Below are positions 19,484-29,530 of a DNA stretch of 64,000 nt, piece by piece; position 1 is the first letter of the stretch; each line of letters begins with the position of its first letter. This stretch comes from Gracilibacillus orientalis (GTDB lineage: Bacteria > Bacillota > Bacilli > Bacillales > Amphibacillaceae), in the NCBI RefSeq assembly GCF_900114645.1, contig NZ_FOTR01000015.1, positions 1 through 64,000 of the forward strand, given 5' to 3'. Both the position numbers and the translations under genes were made by a program. The notes under the pieces are model-generated. The model ran no database searches, had not been told where the DNA came from, and saw only the letters and a list, made by a program, of their open reading frames with translations.

Positions 19484-20191
19484 TTAGTCATTTTTAACAC
19501 CTGTAATTTGATTAAAATATTCCTCATATTTAGTCATAGCCTGTTCATCTAATCTTTTGGATATATGAGAATATACATCTGCGGTTATTTGATAACTACC
19601 ATGGCCTAATCTTTCTTGAATAAATTTAATTTCTGCACCAGCTTCTAATTGTAATACAGCATGCGTGTGGCGCAACGAATGAATAGGAAGACTCCTAATA
19701 CCTGCCTGTTTTAAGATGCGCCCATATGCATTAAATAAGCTTGATTTAGGCATGATGTATCCATCTTCACGACAAAATACAAGATTGAGGTCATGACGAT
19801 ATATATCATTAAGATTCTGTTTGTTCTTATTTTGCCATTTGAGATGATCTTTTAATTGATTGATAGTATTGTTGGTTAATGAGATAGTTCTCTTAGAACG
19901 AAAAGTCTTAGGGTCGCCAAACAACTCATCATCCGATATAGCTTGAAAATCCAATGTATTATTTATTGTTACTGTTTTGTCTTTAAAATTAATATCTGAC
20001 CATTGAAGCGCAGCGACTTCACCTTTGCGCATTCCTGCTGCTGCGGCATAAAATTGATTACCACGTAGCGTTTTTAATGCACCCCAAACCGCTTTATACT
20101 TAATCGGTTCTGTAATTGGAAATCCATTATCATTTGTTCCACCTGCAGGTTTTTGAAATGTCAGTCTTTGTTTTAGATCTCCCGGATTCAT
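19484..20191 (-). pseudogene. Chimeric ORF: phage head-tail connector N-terminus fused to integrase catalytic domain
   Basis: One uninterrupted 235-codon frame joins parts of two unrelated phage genes. Residues 1 to about 50 (MNPGDLKQRLTFQKPAGGTN, then WGALKTLRG) are the start of an SPP1 gp16-like head-tail joining protein. From about residue 53 it is the catalytic domain of a tyrosine integrase with R55 (GMRKGE), K100 (FRSKRTISL), H171 and R174 (HSLRHTHA), H197 (RLGHGSY) and Y207 (DVYSHI). The arm- and core-binding N-terminal domains are lost, so I expect no integration activity. The joint lies in an alanine-rich stretch (FYAAAAGMRKG), pointing to recombination at short homology. It lies just inside attL, where the integrase of such an element belongs. 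Confidence 0.85.
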
Positions 20192-20233
20192 TCTTCATCA
20201 CCTACTACATAGCAATATTTCAACTCTCGAATA

Positions 20234-21583
20234 ATGCTATCTAACCTCATACACCTTGACGGATTAACACTTATAGAAAATGGTGTTATTCAAAACGCTC
20301 ATATTGAAAATGGAACAATTGAAAGGGCTAAGTTAGTAAGAGCTGTTATCGGTGAAGCCCAGATTGAGGATTTAGCTGTTACCAATGCAAAGATAGCTAG
20401 TTTAAATGCAGATAAGATTAATGCATCAAGATTATCAGCTATAACTGCAAACATGGGCACGGTAACAGCAGGACGATTATTATCTAACAACAATGCGATT
20501 GATATTAACTTAAACACTTCTCAATTTAAGTTAGGTAGTAATGCCAAGATACACTTTACTGATAGAGCCAATACATTATATTACACAAATAATAGTGTAT
20601 ATGGAGGTTTATTATTTGACCACTCTTTAAATGGTGGCGGTCGTCCGCTAGTCGCACTAGGCGTGTCAGATAACGGCTTTGATCCAAATGACACAAGTTG
20701 GAATGGGTTACGTGTGCATAGTGGTTGGGTTGAAAGTAATGTGGATGGCGTAATGACTAACATCATTTCCCAACAATTTTGGACAAACCAAAATCCTGAT
20801 TACTCTGGCGAAGGTTGGGTATTAGAAAATGCTTGGTCAGGTAATCGTAATAGAGCAATCTACGGAATGGACGGAGAAAACTTTGGATATGATTTAGGAT
20901 TCGCTGGTGGTGGAGAGTTTTCCAACGGATATATAGAAAACGTGAATACAAATCGGGTTAATGGATTTGATGAAATCCTATTTCGTAATAGATACGACGA
21001 CAGTAACGTAGGGTGGACATTGAAATTAGCGTATGAAGGCGGTTCTACTGTTGACTTTTACCCTATCAACACTGGTACACCTAATTATTACAATATTGGT
21101 CGCTCAAACAACAGAATCAATAGAGCGTATTTAAATATTGTAGAAGGTAATTCTATCGGGACATCATCTAATCCACATAGTTATGTATATACAGATTATT
21201 TAATTGAGGGCTCTGATGAGTCTATTAAGGATAATGTACAAGATAGCCAGCTCGGATTAAACTTTGTAAAAGATATTCACGTTGTAGATTTTAAAATGAA
21301 AAGCAGTGAAAAGTATAAATCCGGTGTGATTGCCCAAGAATTAGTATCCGTTCTAGATGCCCATGATGTTAATTTGGATTAACAAAGCATGGTGTTCGAG
21401 AATGAAGAAGTTATGGGAGTAGCTTATACACAACTAATCGCACCAACCATTAAAGCCGTTCAAGAAATAGATAAAAAGTTAGATGATGAAATCAATTGGC
21501 TTAAAGTTGAAAATCAATTATTACGTAATGAGGTAACAACATTAAAAAATAAAGTACAACAATTGGAGGAAAAAGTAGCATGA
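20234..21583 (+). pseudogene. Phage tail fibre/spike gene with S74-like chaperone end, interrupted by an in-frame stop
   Basis: Codons run in one frame from 20234 to 21583 except for a TAA at 21380-21382. The N-terminal part carries repeated short strands of the type NAHIENGTIERAKLV and ITANMGTVTAGRLLSNN, typical of siphophage tail proteins. The middle is a beta-rich receptor-binding region. The end (GSDESIKDNVQDSQLGLNFV, SGVIAQELVSVLDAHDVNLD, then after the stop GVAYTQLIAPTIKAVQEIDK and a coiled coil) looks like a peptidase S74 intramolecular chaperone. The stop removes the last 66 codons. There is no ribosome site before the first ATG and a normal tail protein would be longer, so the 5' end is also missing. 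It cannot make a functional fibre unless the TAA is read through. Confidence 0.8.
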
Positions 21584-22005
21584 TCAAATTACAAAATAAA
21601 CATTTAAAAGACGTAGCAGATTTTTTACAAAACAATGTGGGGGCGAAAGGAAAGAAAAACATTCACCGTATGAGAATAGTAAAGGCTCTACAGGAAGGTA
21701 ATAACAAGCTGGCTGAGGAAGAGGTTGCTCTTTTAAAAGAGTATGCCAAGACAGATGAACAAGGGGAGTTAGTCACTAATGAGAAGGGGGGATTTGATGT
21801 AGACGATAAAAAAGGCTTTAACGAGCAACATAAAGAATTGTTTGATGAGGAATACGTGATTGATGATAAGAACCTAGAATCCGCTGTAAAAACAGTCGAA
21901 AATTTAACAAATGATTACGACAAAGAGCTCATCGGCAAATCTGCCGAGGCTCATTTTTTATTGGCTGAATCAATTGAAAATGTTGAAGGAGGTGAAGAAG
22001 AGTGA
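21580..22005 (+). CDS. DUF1617-like phage protein
   Basis: A 141-residue acidic protein starting with MIKLQNKHLKDVADFLQN, which resembles the DUF1617 phage family found next to tail fibre genes. The ATG overlaps the stop of the tail gene (ATGA), indicating translational coupling in the late operon. The sequence is rich in E and K with helical character. Molecular function unknown. Confidence 0.65.
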   Translation: MIKLQNKHLKDVADFLQNNVGAKGKKNIHRMRIVKALQEGNNKLAEEEVALLKEYAKTDEQGELVTNEKGGFDVDDKKGFNEQHKELFDEEYVIDDKNLESAVKTVENLTNDYDKELIGKSAEAHFLLAESIENVEGGEEE

Positions 22006-22238
22006 TGGAAGAATACGTATTTGTAGAAACCAGTTCACGCACAGTTACGGAAGATGGTCAACGCTTCCGTAGAATTAACTTCCGGGGAAATGATCCAACA
22101 AATGAATTAAATGTAGACGGTTATATCCCTAAAGTTCCAGAAATGGATTATTTTCAAGCAGGACTTGACGGTACATTAAGTGATTTAATCAGAAATTTTG
22201 TTATTGATAAATTGACACCAACAGAACAAAGCGCCTAA
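22005..22238 (+). CDS. Small phage protein of unknown function
   Basis: A 77-residue protein. I choose the ATG at 22005, which overlaps the preceding TGA; a GTG three bases earlier is the alternative, and GGAGGTGAAG serves both. No motif is recognised. Position between a DUF1617-like gene and a holin-type gene suggests a tail-end structural or accessory role. Confidence 0.6.
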   Translation: MEEYVFVETSSRTVTEDGQRFRRINFRGNDPTNELNVDGYIPKVPEMDYFQAGLDGTLSDLIRNFVIDKLTPTEQSA

Positions 22239-22306
22239 TTGGCGTATTTTTTATGCAGGAATTTCCTCCTTTTTGTCGAATTATGATAAGGAGGAGGGGA
22301 GATGAA

Positions 22307-22597
22307 ATGGATATTGTACAAGAACTAAAGAGCAAAGGTTTTAATGCTATTGATTGTATTGGTGTGGGCGTGGATCTTAAGGAAATGGAAATAACTTTAG
22401 AAAATACAAACACTCAAGAACTTCTTAGCATGTTTGGAATAGATTCACGTTCAGCTTCATTGGTTGAGGAGGGTGAAAATTTATTTATAATTGGAAAGAA
22501 TAAACCCATAGGTCATTTTCCCAAAGAGAACGGGGAAACTGTAAACATAAACGAAGTGCTTCATGAAATAAAAATTAAGATTAAAGAATCAGTTTAA
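22307..22597 (+). CDS. Hypothetical phage-region protein
   Basis: A 96-residue protein starting at ATG 22307 with an excellent AAGGAGGAGGGG site. It is a mixed alpha/beta sequence (GFNAIDCIGVGVDLKEMEI, then a lysine/isoleucine-rich C-terminus) without signal peptide or membrane segment. I do not recognise a family. Terminator-like stem follows at 22667-22695. Confidence 0.6.
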   Translation: MDIVQELKSKGFNAIDCIGVGVDLKEMEITLENTNTQELLSMFGIDSRSASLVEEGENLFIIGKNKPIGHFPKENGETVNINEVLHEIKIKIKESV

Positions 22598-22666
22598 CGA
22601 GGGTTCTATTTGTTTAACTATTTGTTTAATTCCCATTTAAATTTAAGAGTAGATATCTGATTATTA

Positions 22667-22695
22667 TAGCATCTCAAAAGAGGTGCTTTTTTTAT
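22667..22695 (+). terminator. Terminator-like hairpin in the late phage gene cluster
   Basis: Stem AGCATCTC / GAGGTGCT with loop AAAA and a run of seven T. Confidence 0.7.
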
Positions 22696-22721
22696 ACCCA
22701 AAAATAGGTAGGGGGCAAAGC

Positions 22722-23018
22722 ATGACAGTCGAACTAGGGATTCTAATATCTATTGCATCTATATTAATAGCAGCATTAGGTGTGCTAATAGCATATTTGA
22801 CGTATCAATCAAGAAGGAGTACTACTACTAAAAATGACACCAAAGAAAGTGCGGAGTTAAAAGCTGGGGTAGATTACATTCGAAAAGGTGTGGATGATAT
22901 TCGTATTGATCTAAGGTCAAACGAAAAGCAGATGAATGCATTATCTGAACGAGTAGCTAGGGTAGATGAATCAACTAAACAAGCGCATAAAAGAATTGAC
23001 GCAATCAGTCCAGACTAG
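22722..23018 (+). CDS. Membrane-anchored coiled-coil protein, XhlA-like
   Basis: A 98-residue protein from ATG 22722 (GGTAGGGGG ahead). One N-terminal transmembrane helix (about residues 3-26) is followed by a charged coiled coil (VDYIRKGVDDIRIDLRSNEK and on). Such proteins accompany holin and endolysin genes in Bacillus phages and prophages (XhlA type), though XhlA has its helix at the other end, so homology is tentative. Confidence 0.6.
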   Translation: MTVELGILISIASILIAALGVLIAYLTYQSRRSTTTKNDTKESAELKAGVDYIRKGVDDIRIDLRSNEKQMNALSERVARVDESTKQAHKRIDAISPD

Positions 23019-23050
23019 GGCTGATTTTTTATTTGAAGGAGGTGATATCT

Positions 23051-23281
23051 ATGGATAAAGGCGCAATCGTACGTACAGCAGTCCTAGTGATTGCTTTAAT
23101 TAACCAGGTACTAGTGGCAACAGGCTTAAATCCGATCTCAGGAAGTGAAGATGTTTGGGGAGAAGCAATCTCAAGTGCAATTACTGTTGGTGCTGCAGTA
23201 TGGGCATGGTTTAAAGACAATGCCGTAACTGCAAGAGGGAAATATCAACAACAAGTATTAAAAGATAAAGGATTGAAATAA
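23051..23281 (+). CDS. Phage holin, SPP1 family
   Basis: A 76-residue holin: N-terminal MDKGAIVRTAVLVIALINQV transmembrane segment, a short loop (GLNPISGSEDVW), a second hydrophobic segment and a basic tail with ARGKYQQQVLKDKGLK. Holins of this family form the membrane lesions that let the endolysin through. GAAGGAGGTGAT precedes the ATG. It lies directly before the endolysin gene, the expected lysis cassette. Confidence 0.85.
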   Translation: MDKGAIVRTAVLVIALINQVLVATGLNPISGSEDVWGEAISSAITVGAAVWAWFKDNAVTARGKYQQQVLKDKGLK

Positions 23282-23309
23282 AGCCGTCTCATTAGAGGTG
23301 GCTTTTTCT
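23281..23309 (+). terminator. Terminator-like hairpin between holin and endolysin
   Basis: Imperfect stem AGCCGTCTC / GAGGTGGCT followed by TTTTTCT. Confidence 0.5.
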
Positions 23310-23336
23310 ACTATATTTAAAAGGAGTGGTTAAATA

Positions 23337-24395
23337 GTGACACACTTTGAAAAATTACCGCAGTTAGTTGATCATAGAAACACGCTGCCAAAGAAAGGTC
23401 ATTATGCTGACAGAACAACCATTATTACAACCAGAGTATGGCATCACGGTTTAACGTTATCACACTTAAGCGGTTCTACTGCTTTAGGATATAACAACTA
23501 CCATATTACCTTAGGATGGCCAGGGTGTGGTTATCATCTCGTGATCGAAGCAAAGAATATTGTTCAAACACCAAATGGACCACGTGCTCGAATAGTTTAT
23601 TGCAATGATATACGTAAAAAAACGTATCATATTGGTAACAGTAATAACTTCAGTCTTGGGGTATGTGTAACTGGTGATTATCGTAAAGAAGAATTATCGG
23701 ATGCAACAAAGGCAACAATTGACGAGTTGCAGGAAGCCCTGGTAAAAGACAGCATTGGGAAATATGATAAATCACACCACCAAATGCCAGATTATTCGTG
23801 GAAAGCTTGTTGTGTGTATAACTATAAAAAGGCTTTTAAATTCTTGGATGATACCAAACCATCAAGTGCACCAGACACTTATAAAATCCAAGAAGGCGAT
23901 ACACTATGGGGCATTGCTAATAACAGTGATGGCATTTCTGTAGAGGATCTTAAAAAGGCTAACCCAGGTGTGGATCCTACCAAGCTAAAAGTTGGTCAGG
24001 TTATTAATTTAGGTAAAGCTAAGAAATCAAGTGGATCTAATAACAACTCAAGTAAAAGTAAACCAAAGGCTAATTTAAAAGTAGATGGCAAGTGGGGAAA
24101 TGGCACAACCAAAGGATTGCAACAATACCTTGATACAGTACAAGATGGAATTATAAGCGATCAAGTACGTAACAACGTGACAAATACTTTTTATGGTACG
24201 ACTATTGATTTTGGAAATGGTAAAGGTAGTCTAGTCATTAAAGCGTTACAGAGCAAGATTGGTGCGAAGGTGGATGGTCTGCTAGGTCCTAATACAATTC
24301 AAGAGTATTTAGGTACTGTTTATGACAAGAAACTAAGCAAACCATCACTAGTAGTCAAAGAGTTACAACGTCGTTTGAATAAAGGTACATTTTAA
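23337..24395 (+). CDS. Phage endolysin: N-acetylmuramoyl-L-alanine amidase with LysM
   Basis: A 352-residue enzyme starting at GTG with AAGGAGTGG ahead. The N-terminal amidase_2/PGRP-type domain (about residues 1-170) has zinc-ligand candidates in VWHHGLT, in HHQMPDYSW and in WKACCVY. A LysM follows (YKIQEGDTLWGIA to VGQVINLG), then a serine/lysine-rich linker and a C-terminal part with repeats of peptidoglycan-binding type (LKVDGKWGNGTTKGLQQYL and AKVDGLLGPNTIQEYL). It would cleave the stem peptide from the glycan at lysis. It appears intact although the rest of the prophage is degraded. Its last codons have a decayed twin at 30006-30085. Confidence 0.9.
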   Translation: MTHFEKLPQLVDHRNTLPKKGHYADRTTIITTRVWHHGLTLSHLSGSTALGYNNYHITLGWPGCGYHLVIEAKNIVQTPNGPRARIVYCNDIRKKTYHIGNSNNFSLGVCVTGDYRKEELSDATKATIDELQEALVKDSIGKYDKSHHQMPDYSWKACCVYNYKKAFKFLDDTKPSSAPDTYKIQEGDTLWGIANNSDGISVEDLKKANPGVDPTKLKVGQVINLGKAKKSSGSNNNSSKSKPKANLKVDGKWGNGTTKGLQQYLDTVQDGIISDQVRNNVTNTFYGTTIDFGNGKGSLVIKALQSKIGAKVDGLLGPNTIQEYLGTVYDKKLSKPSLVVKELQRRLNKGTF

Positions 24396-24428: not shown

Positions 24429-24458
24429 TTGTAGATTTAATGGTGAAAATAATATAAT
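24429..24458 (+). promoter_or_regulatory. Predicted promoter upstream of the DUF899 gene
   Basis: TTGTAG at 24429-24434 and TATAAT at 24453-24458, spacer 18, in AT-rich host-like sequence. It lies about 125 bases before the GC-rich gene. Confidence 0.45.
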
Positions 24459-24583
24459 GTTATACCACTAACGAACTATTATGTTGAATAAAAAATTTTT
24501 AGCAATCGAGAAGAAGTCATTTGTATTTATGTTTGATAAACTATCAAGTGTGTAGGAAAACAATAGCGAAAGGAGATGTTTGC

Positions 24584-25360
24584 ATGAATCATAATTACAA
24601 AACCTCTGCGCTACCAACGGTGGTCGACCGGGACACCTGGCAGGCCAAACTTGATGAGTTGCGGGTCCGGGAGAAGGCACACACCCGAGAAGGTGACGCG
24701 ATCGCAGCGGCCCGACGGCGGCTGCCGATGGTCGAGGTGGACTCGACCATCCCGCTGATCGGCCCGGATGGCCCTGTCACGCTGTTGGATACATTCGAGG
24801 ACCGCCACCAGCTGATCGCGTACTACCACATGTGGCACACCGGTAGACCCGCCGAGGAGCAGTGCGAGGGCTGCACTTTCTCCACGACTCATATCAACGA
24901 ACTGTCCTATCTGCACTCGCGAGACGTGAGCTATGCGACTTTCTGTCAGGGACCGTACGAGGAGAGTTCACGGTATCGAGACTTCATGGGCTGGACGGTT
25001 CCCTGGTACTCGGTGCCGCAAGACGCCGTGGACCGGTTGATCGCAGACCGGCACTTCGGCATCCTGGTCAGTTATCTCCGGGACGGTGACAAGGTCTACG
25101 AGACCTACTGGACCACCGGGCGAGGCAACGAACTGATGGCTCCGTCGTACGGACTGCTGGACCTGACTGTCTACGGTCGGCAAGAGTACTGGGAGGACTC
25201 GCCCATGGGCTGGCCACAGCATTGGGGCTCTAAAGGCGGTCAGTTTCAGCTGGACGGCCGCCCGACCGCTCAATGGTCTCGGCTTGAGGCTGGGCACTCC
25301 GACGACCTCGGCACCAGAGCCACCACCACCGACCGACGCTGCTGCCAAGATAAGCCGTGA
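24584..25360 (+). CDS. DUF899 family thioredoxin-like protein, GC-rich foreign gene
   Basis: A 258-residue DUF899 protein. Landmarks are LPTVVDRDTWQAKLDELRVR near the start, a CxxC in EQCEGCTFST at a thioredoxin-like position, DFMGWTVPWYS, and YGLLDLTVYGRQEYWEDSPM toward the end. Function is not established. I start at ATG 24584 with GAAAGGAGATG before it. Its base composition is alien: two 60-base lines counted inside are 73% and 62% GC, while a line just upstream is 28%. Codons such as CTG, CGG, GTC and GCC dominate, as in actinobacteria. The first six codons and the ribosome site are AT-rich. It sits right after the endolysin as prophage cargo, with intact reading frame. Confidence 0.85.
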   Translation: MNHNYKTSALPTVVDRDTWQAKLDELRVREKAHTREGDAIAAARRRLPMVEVDSTIPLIGPDGPVTLLDTFEDRHQLIAYYHMWHTGRPAEEQCEGCTFSTTHINELSYLHSRDVSYATFCQGPYEESSRYRDFMGWTVPWYSVPQDAVDRLIADRHFGILVSYLRDGDKVYETYWTTGRGNELMAPSYGLLDLTVYGRQEYWEDSPMGWPQHWGSKGGQFQLDGRPTAQWSRLEAGHSDDLGTRATTTDRRCCQDKP

Positions 25361-25696
25361 CCTAGGATAACAAAAAAATAAAATATAGCGTGATGAAAGC
25401 CCTCCAGATGGTTGTTTCAGGCTATACAACACAATTGAATTGCAAAAGCAACCTACTTTATTTTTCTCTATATCAATCATATGTGCAATTGTTGCAGATC
25501 ATAATTAGAAAATGATCACTCTTTTTTTCAAAATGGATTTTCCTTTTGATAAAAAACGATTTTGTGAGATATTTTTGATCAATCATTATACCAAACTTAC
25601 AACAATAGCCCAGGTGTGGAAAGCCTGGGCTTAATATAAAAAGCTAAGGATAATTATACTTTTACTCAAGTACATTCATTTAGTAGTAACTATCGT
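25361..25696. other. 336-bp intergenic region after the DUF899 gene
   Basis: AT-rich sequence returns within about ten bases of the stop codon. Apart from the GTGGAA-loop hairpin at 25607-25631, I see no gene or recognisable element here. Confidence 0.5.
25607..25631 (-). terminator. GTGGAA-loop hairpin, after padC copy 1
   Basis: Stem AGCCCAGG / CCTGGGCT with loop TGTGGAAAG. It lies 66 bases beyond the padC stop on the minus strand. See the other family members at 28938, 29732, 30092 and 30481. Confidence 0.75.
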
Positions 25697-26200
25697 TTAA
25701 AAAGTTAACTTTCCAGAGTGTATATCTTCGGTCATACCATCATAAGGAGCTTGTGAGACAACCTGTTCGTTATTTAATCCTTCATTTTGGAAGAAAGTGA
25801 TATCTGCAAACTCAGGAACCACATGCTTAGGGTAAGTTTCATATTTTAAGCGTGATTCTTCCATTAGATCTATGAAGTCATTTTGATAACAAACAGTAAT
25901 TTCTGGATGTTCATGAACCCATTTAGGGAAGAAAATTATTCCATGCATACGATTTTCATTAGGCATAAAATTGAGTGATACATCTGTACCTGTTGGTTCA
26001 GTCCATGACACTTTAAATACACCATCTACAATTTTAACTAGATCTACTTGTTGGTCACGAACCCAGCGTCCCCCTACCATTCCACTGTGGATACGGTAAT
26101 CAATGGTGTTTTTATTTTTGATGTAGATCTCGTATTCCCAACCGTTTTCATATGTATAAATTAAATGGCTTCCTAAAAATTCTTCTAGTTCCTTCAACAC
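25697..26200 (-). CDS. padC: Phenolic acid decarboxylase, copy 1
   Basis: A 167-residue member of the PadC family, which decarboxylates ferulic, p-coumaric and caffeic acid to vinyl derivatives as a detoxification step in the cytoplasm. Family landmarks include [32 protein letters not shown] and [13 protein letters not shown]-like [13 protein letters not shown]. It starts at GTG with AAAGGAGTGG before it. It is cargo inside the element. A second copy lies at 29027-29530 and differs at 12 of 167 residues. No padR repressor gene is adjacent. Confidence 0.93.
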
Positions 26201-29026: not shown

Positions 29027-29530
29027 TTAAAAAGTTAACTTTTCAGAGCGTATATCTTCGGTCATGCCATCATAAGGAGCTTCTGAAATAATCTGTTCGT
29101 TATTCAATCCCTCATTTTTGAAGAAAGTGATATTTGCAAACTCAGGAACCACATGCTTAGGGTAAGTTTCATATTTTAAGCGTGATTCTTCTATCATGTC
29201 TATGAAGTCATTTTGGTAACAAACAGTAATTTCAGGATGTTCATGGACCCATTTAGGGAAGAAAATTATCCCATGCATGCGCTTGTCATTAGGCATAAAA
29301 TTGAGTGATACATCTGTACCCGTTGGTTCAGTCCAGGACACTTTAAATACACCATCTACAATTTTAACTAGATCTACTTTTTGGTCGCGAACCCATCGGC
29401 CCCCTACCATTCCACTGTGGATGCGGTAATCAATGGTGTTTTTATTTTTAATGTAGATTTCGTATTCCCAACCATTTTCATACGTATAAATTAAATGGCT
29501 TCCTAAAAATTCTTCTAGTTCCTTCAACAC
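29027..29530 (-). CDS. padC: Phenolic acid decarboxylase, copy 2
   Basis: A 167-residue PadC with 155 residues identical to the copy at 25697-26200 by my count; the changes cluster in the C-terminal third and are conservative. GTG start and AAAGGAGTGG site are identical, and the upstream 90 bases and the downstream hairpin are also related. It lies just outside attR. It looks intact. Two copies in direct orientation 3.3 kb apart could recombine and delete the attR core between them. Confidence 0.92.

Follow-up and report, generated by a model that had tools for sequence, protein, structure and literature searches.

The locus examined herein raises the question of how a very GC-rich gene came to stand, with its reading frame intact, in AT-rich DNA of Gracilibacillus orientalis. 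The gene lies in a window of 64,000 nt (the whole stretch of DNA analyzed; NZ_FOTR01000015.1, positions 1-64,000), and its features are compiled in Table 1. The GC content of the ORF was 61.5% (61.6, 47.7, and 75.2% at the first, second, and third codon positions), and its 60-base lines ranged from 53 to 70%, as opposed to 26.5% and 30.0% in the adjoining 200 bp upstream and downstream, approximately 26-36% in the flanks, and 26-45% in every 500-base step of the window outside the gene. A match to the PF05988 profile (182.3 bits against a cut-off of 27, residues 11-210) placed the product in DUF899, and the gene itself is thus a new member of a known family, of which the host genome carries two further, native genes (identities of 43% and 37% across the N-terminal part). 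The original prediction had read this locus as a recent cross-phylum import that was not yet adapted to its host. The strong compositional contrast, the intact 258-codon frame, and the host-like start on which it was built were all borne out, the last of these extending from the AT-rich leader over codons 1-9 (33% GC, compared with 62.5% for codons 10-258) rather than over the first six. As described below, the actinobacterial origin, the retained GC content, and the host-type leader likewise stood, whereas the terms "recent" and "not yet adapted" did not.

Table 1. Features of the DUF899 locus (window coordinates)
Feature	Position	Strand	Basis or remark
Prophage remnant adjoining the unit: integrase/head fragment (-), tail, holin, endolysin (+)	19484..24395		
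Shared mobile unit, 1,003 bp: AT-rich leader, GC-rich DUF899 ORF, AT-rich 3' tail	24478..25480	+	blastn
Conserved promoter: AGCAATCGAGAAGAAGT (24501-24517), 16-nt spacer, extended -10 TGATAAACT (24534-24542)	24501..24542	+	pattern matches and downstream genes
Ribosome-binding site AAGGAGAT	24570..24577	+	sequence
DUF899 gene, 258 aa, GC-rich, actinobacterial type	24584..25360	+	intact ORF
Host-type codons 1-9 (MNHNYKTSA), 33% GC	24584..24610	+	no homology to actinobacterial N-termini
CEGC, residues 94-97, probable redox active site	24863..24874	+	Cys invariant, thioredoxin/peroxiredoxin-like fold
3' tail common to copies from different genera	25361..25480	+	alignment and sequences
Dispersed repeat copy immediately following the unit: degenerate ATGTGCAATTGTTG and, behind it, a block present three more times in the genome	25481..25602	+	

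In the bacterial genome collection, the best relative was the copy of Lentibacillus halodurans (94% amino acid identity), followed by those of Virgibacillus subterraneus (93%), Alteribacillus (91%), Thalassobacillus (85-89%), and Virgibacillus litoralis (88%); below these Bacillaceae copies ranked two from Paenibacillus and then Actinomycetota at 84% or less, with two Ktedonobacteria at 79-80%. The distribution was patchy, comprising one other genome among 17 of the genus (G012, 92%), 5 of 159 genomes of the family, and 4 of 397 genomes in the order sample. In protein trees, the Bacillota copies were nested among Actinomycetota, with Actinomycetota also as the outgroups. This placement supports the predicted cross-phylum origin, in which the gene arose in Actinomycetota and crossed into Bacillota. 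Retention of the high GC content of the donor is likewise supported. Whether the Bacillota copies are monophyletic was neither shown nor rejected (p-AU 0.33), and therefore several entries into Bacillota are possible. The dN/dS values between the window copy and the other Bacillaceae copies were 0.08-0.14, indicating that the protein has been maintained.

Comparison of the surrounding DNA by blastn revealed that the gene does not stand alone. The window shared the block 24478-25480 with L. halodurans (G045/L005) and 24499-25480 with V. subterraneus (L006), with no other similarity in the flanks, and 24480-25413 with the copy of the same-genus genome G012 (L036/L170). When window positions 14000-38000 were compared with 18 kb surrounding this G012 copy, no DNA other than the latter block was shared. 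The G012 unit is situated at 4.28 Mb, 1.8 Mb away from the syntenic glnA-tkt region (2.46-2.48 Mb). The DUF899 genes of the window and L. halodurans shared 94% of amino acids and 81% of fourfold sites, compared with 75%/37% for transketolase and 84%/29% for glutamine synthetase (glnA); the corresponding values against G012 were 92%/78% for DUF899 and 96%/76% and 99%/79% for the same two core genes. These comparisons indicate, at the level of sequence, that the unit was transferred between Bacillaceae genera and sits at unrelated places even within the genus; an alternative is that it was transferred within larger segments that were rearranged later. The movement itself is established by these data. 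The unit is not always complete, since the copies L009, L013, and L178 are without the promoter motif and have in common only the ribosome site and the start, a region that the promoter-less L009 and L178 share with the other copies.

The promoter within the leader conforms to the consensus AGCAATCGAGAAGAA(A/G)T-N16-TGNTAnnnT. The promoter formerly proposed (24429-24458) falls outside this unit and was not recovered by the consensus scan of the plus strand; the promoter backed by conservation is the one at 24501-24542, which also precedes native genes in genomes of the order. A 28-base stretch of the leader recurs upstream of a native DUF899 gene, and a sequence profile of such leaders gave strong matches in 6 of the 17 genus genomes, ahead of genes for DUF899, RibD_C ("DHFR family"), glyoxalase/VOC, AHSA1, and SnoaL proteins and of a MerR-MFS-DUF899 cluster. 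The search of 397 order genomes with the pattern AGCAATYSARAAGAARTN{14,18}TGNTANNNT yielded 29 matches in 17 genomes from 13 genera (one match for the reversed pattern), and the spacer was exactly 16 nt in all of them, although 14-18 nt were permitted. Such rigidity, to which no formal probability can be attached because the copies are related to each other, is what a protein-bound promoter would show. The genes downstream encode glyoxalase/VOC, RibD_C, AHSA1, SnoaL, DUF899, MFS, DrrA, hydrolase, and MerR proteins, and Pfam searches of representatives returned Glyoxalase, 3-dmu-9_3-mt, AHSA1, RibD_C, SnoaL_3, serine hydrolase, DNA_alkylation, MerR, and DrrA-type ABC domains. In one case (L105; G000:C7, ~0.5-3.3 kb), a MerR regulator, an MFS transporter, and a second native DUF899 gene stand behind the same promoter motif. 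No occurrence of the promoter and repeat strings was found in the relevant literature, and this promoter of rigid geometry, fronting detoxification and efflux genes of Bacillales, is apparently undescribed; together with the repeat-bounded array described below, it is the part of the system that looks new. An RNA element in the leader was rejected, with no Rfam match and no consistent fold. A leader peptide (AIEKK), whose codon third positions fit the changes in the motif, was also rejected on the grounds that several copies have a stop directly upstream of the motif and no start, and the wider motif set was better explained as a DNA site.

The motif might alternatively belong to a promoter of the Spx type, at which AGCA is bound by Spx together with the alpha CTD, rather than being the target of a dedicated activator. 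In Spx promoters, AGCA is found at -45 to -42 and is followed by an A-rich tract (PMC2801614). With the Spx-activated promoters of Bacillus subtilis (trxA, trxB, and nfrA), the present leader has in common an AGCA upstream of a weak -35 region and an A-rich tract. Its AGCA is located at about -48 to -45, on the assumption that the -10 element ends at -7 (the start site being predicted only), and is followed by ATCGAGAAGAAAT. However, AGCA thus stands ~3 nt further upstream, the consensus is much longer, with 17-bp conservation extending well past AGCA, and the spacer to TGNTAnnnT is fixed at 16 nt. The motif is also restricted to few genomes, despite Spx being described as highly conserved among Gram-positive bacteria (PMC2801614). 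We thus regard the Spx reading as rather unlikely and retain a dedicated activator as the preferred one.

The upstream leader parts of L010 and of the L064 remnant gave scores of 57 and 56 against native DUF899 leaders, compared with a shuffle 95th percentile of 28 and with 34-44 for the best other regulon genes. The upstream part of the window copy scored 25-30 (shuffle 95th percentile 35), being too short or degenerate; it is too diverged to match the native leaders, and the takeover was therefore read from the sister copies. Homology with native DUF899 leaders is evident in the most complete foreign ones, and the foreign ORF accordingly appears to have taken over a native promoter, which would make this a case of a foreign ORF placed behind the native promoter of its own family's genes. 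In L012, a piece of a native DUF899 leader (score 56) was joined upstream of a foreign-type ribosome site, a joint that looks like a second capture. L064 itself (1300-1470, 743-1324; G003:C14:335.6 kb) consists of the foreign DUF899 leader and ~20 codons that run into a RibD_C/DHFR-family gene; the DUF899 body is missing there in G003, having been deleted or replaced.

To our knowledge, no function is known for the DUF899 family, which is listed in the thioredoxin-like clan (PMC3091736). The window protein resembles other members in its profile match, its CxxC, and its predicted peroxiredoxin/TlpA-like fold, and differs from typical ones as a GC-rich actinobacterial subfamily residing in AT-rich Bacillaceae beside native genes. 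No solved homologue was found by sequence. In the AlphaFold model (mean pLDDT 70.5, moderate; residues 202-258 low and the C-terminal quarter unresolved), the core of residues 47-203 was thioredoxin-like, with BcpB/PrxQ peroxiredoxins and ResA as the best matches (Z 12-13) and the CxxC at a helix start. Both Cys residues (C94 and C97) were invariant in 31 relatives. The thioredoxin-like fold and CEGC motif that had been predicted were thus reproduced in the model. In Actinomadura and Amycolatopsis, the DUF899 gene follows AHSA1-like and ArsR genes, and in Actinocrispum it adjoins an ECF sigma gene (identities assigned by eye rather than by profile). The donor neighborhood therefore names the same guild as the recipient promoter set, and our best guess is a role in redox or electrophile detoxification.

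Based on these results, we propose as the rather probable explanation that a DUF899 ORF from Actinomycetota reached Bacillota at an early date and, near codon 9-10, became linked to a start region of Bacillota type. The promoter in front of this region would already have been in use for native DUF899 genes and for other small genes of the detoxification type. From then on, promoter, ORF, and 3' tail would have travelled together as a ~1-kb unit among genera of mostly halophilic Bacillaceae, perhaps by recombination at dispersed intergenic repeats bounding it, and would have landed beside a prophage remnant in this genome. Purifying selection keeps the protein, and its GC content would therefore fall only slowly. 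Expression would probably be driven from the extended -10 by RNA polymerase carrying the housekeeping sigma factor, and a putative activator whose site would span about -48 to -32 would recruit it. The product would probably be a CxxC thiol-disulfide or peroxiredoxin-like enzyme acting against an oxidant or electrophile, with a presumptive selective value to the host.

The right border of the unit bears on its possible route of movement. Directly to its right, a GGGCGCGATTGTTGAATAAG-like sequence was found in L005, L006, and L177, and in degenerate form in L007 and the window. With two mismatches allowed, GGGCGCGATTNTTGAATA occurred 40 times in seven genomes, compared with 4 times for the reversed control; the repeat was searched by profile, a strict two-part regular expression being too narrow. 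When the copies of V. subterraneus (L006) were left out of the profile, four elements were found on the gene strand of this genome: three start 3-7 nt past a stop codon, and the remaining one starts where the DUF899 tail ends. The same region (NZ_FOEH01000003.1, 1-5730) contains small single genes that stand in a row on one strand, with copies of a common repeat, GGTGCGATTGTTTAATAAG, between them (1587, 3699, 4072, and 5673; weaker at 89 and 1841) at 3-18 nt after the stops, and this arrangement resembles a cassette array. In the window, a block of ~90 bp (25513-25602) recurs three times in diverged form (74-77%) at other places of the genome (C17, C6, and C28), and two of these copies adjoin a GGGCGCGATTGTTGA repeat; the block is possibly a small non-autonomous element.

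Mobile insertion cassettes possess terminal inverted repeats recognized by an IS transposase, and MIC231 of Bacillus cereus consists of one passenger gene that moves although it has no transposase of its own. Integron cassette arrays are characterized by attC boxes (RYYYAAC/GTTRRRY) and an IntI integrase. The DUF899 unit is similar to MIC231, which is cited in PMC6542083, in that a single gene moves without its own transposase in Bacillaceae, but differs in having no clear terminal inverted repeats, the ends ATG-TTGAATAA / ATGATTGAATAA being weak in this respect (19 and 131 of 1000 shuffles were as good), and in that no target duplication was seen. The L006 row likewise recalls integron cassettes and integrase-less attC clusters in its one-gene units, common strand, and repeat position after the stops, but its repeat core is mostly GTTTAAT, which lies outside GTTRRRY, and the two core forms GTTTAAT and GTTGAAT match the attC boxes only partly. 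An undescribed Bacillaceae gene-cassette system, in which one-gene units with a short repeat of the GGTGCGATTGTTTAATAAG type would be exchanged between genera by repeat recombination and the DUF899 unit with its captured stress-type promoter would be a compositionally labelled cassette, is distinctly unlikely on this evidence. If it were true, the GC-rich unit would make gene traffic between Bacillaceae genera visible. The repeat-bounded array may explain the travel of single genes.

The AT-rich surroundings had been taken for a prophage remnant, and this identification was upheld by what is encoded to the left of the gene: a fusion of an integrase with a head-completion fragment, as well as tail proteins, an SPP1-type holin, and an endolysin. 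The fusion (19484-20191, minus strand) joins in frame the N-terminus of a phage head-completion protein to the C-terminal part of a tyrosine integrase and is a deletion scar of the prophage remnant. The position of the DUF899 gene directly behind the holin-endolysin cassette might suggest phage cargo (a moron) spread by temperate phages, with the prophage edge as the vehicle. However, the best match in the phage collection was 44% identical and none was confirmed in viral contigs, and the matched DNA ends at 24478, so that the L005, L006, and G012 copies have no phage DNA in common with the window. We therefore consider phage cargo quite improbable. Plasmid carriage was also rejected, with a best plasmid match of 69% amino acid identity in Streptomyces.

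If this host had recently acquired the gene directly from an actinobacterium, and the gene were still unadapted, the GC contrast and the intact frame described above would be accounted for. The closest relatives, however, are not found in the donor phylum but are Bacillaceae genes (86-94%) of the same composition (57-64% GC, flanks 30-43%) and with the same leader and tail, while the closest actinobacterial copies are only 81-84% identical to the window copy and have different leaders. Bacillaceae relatives of like composition are the very outcome that the original prediction had named as grounds for its own rejection. The dS between Bacillota copies ranged from 0.26 to above 1, and together with the purifying selection and the GC partly lost in some hosts (L013 from Paenibacillus senegalensis, 54.0%; L178, 53.8%; 54-57% across L013, L011, and L178), this argues against the "recent" and "unadapted" of the original prediction and leaves such a transfer highly improbable. 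Between the window and L. halodurans genes, A/T in the window copy faced G/C in the other at 35 sites, and the opposite was seen at 17, a bias that fits slow GC loss. The compositional oddity is thus real, but it marks an older traveller shared among Bacillaceae and not a fresh one-off import. The high GC content serves as a natural tracer: it allows the same protein to be tracked across many AT-rich hosts in which compositional drift has advanced to differing degrees (from 64% to 54% GC), and the promoter joint can be seen as well.

An assembly chimera or contamination, to which the abrupt GC change at both ORF ends might point, is of practically negligible probability, because the same promoter-ORF-tail joint recurs, with differing sequence, in independent assemblies from several genera.

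The Dictyobacter and Ktedonobacter copies (L020 and L035) are compositionally odd too, with 65% GC and flanks of 48-56%. Beside the DUF899 unit in the window, two nearly identical phenolic acid decarboxylase genes (25697-26200 and 29027-29530, both on the minus strand), located ~3.3 kb apart, represent a recent duplication.
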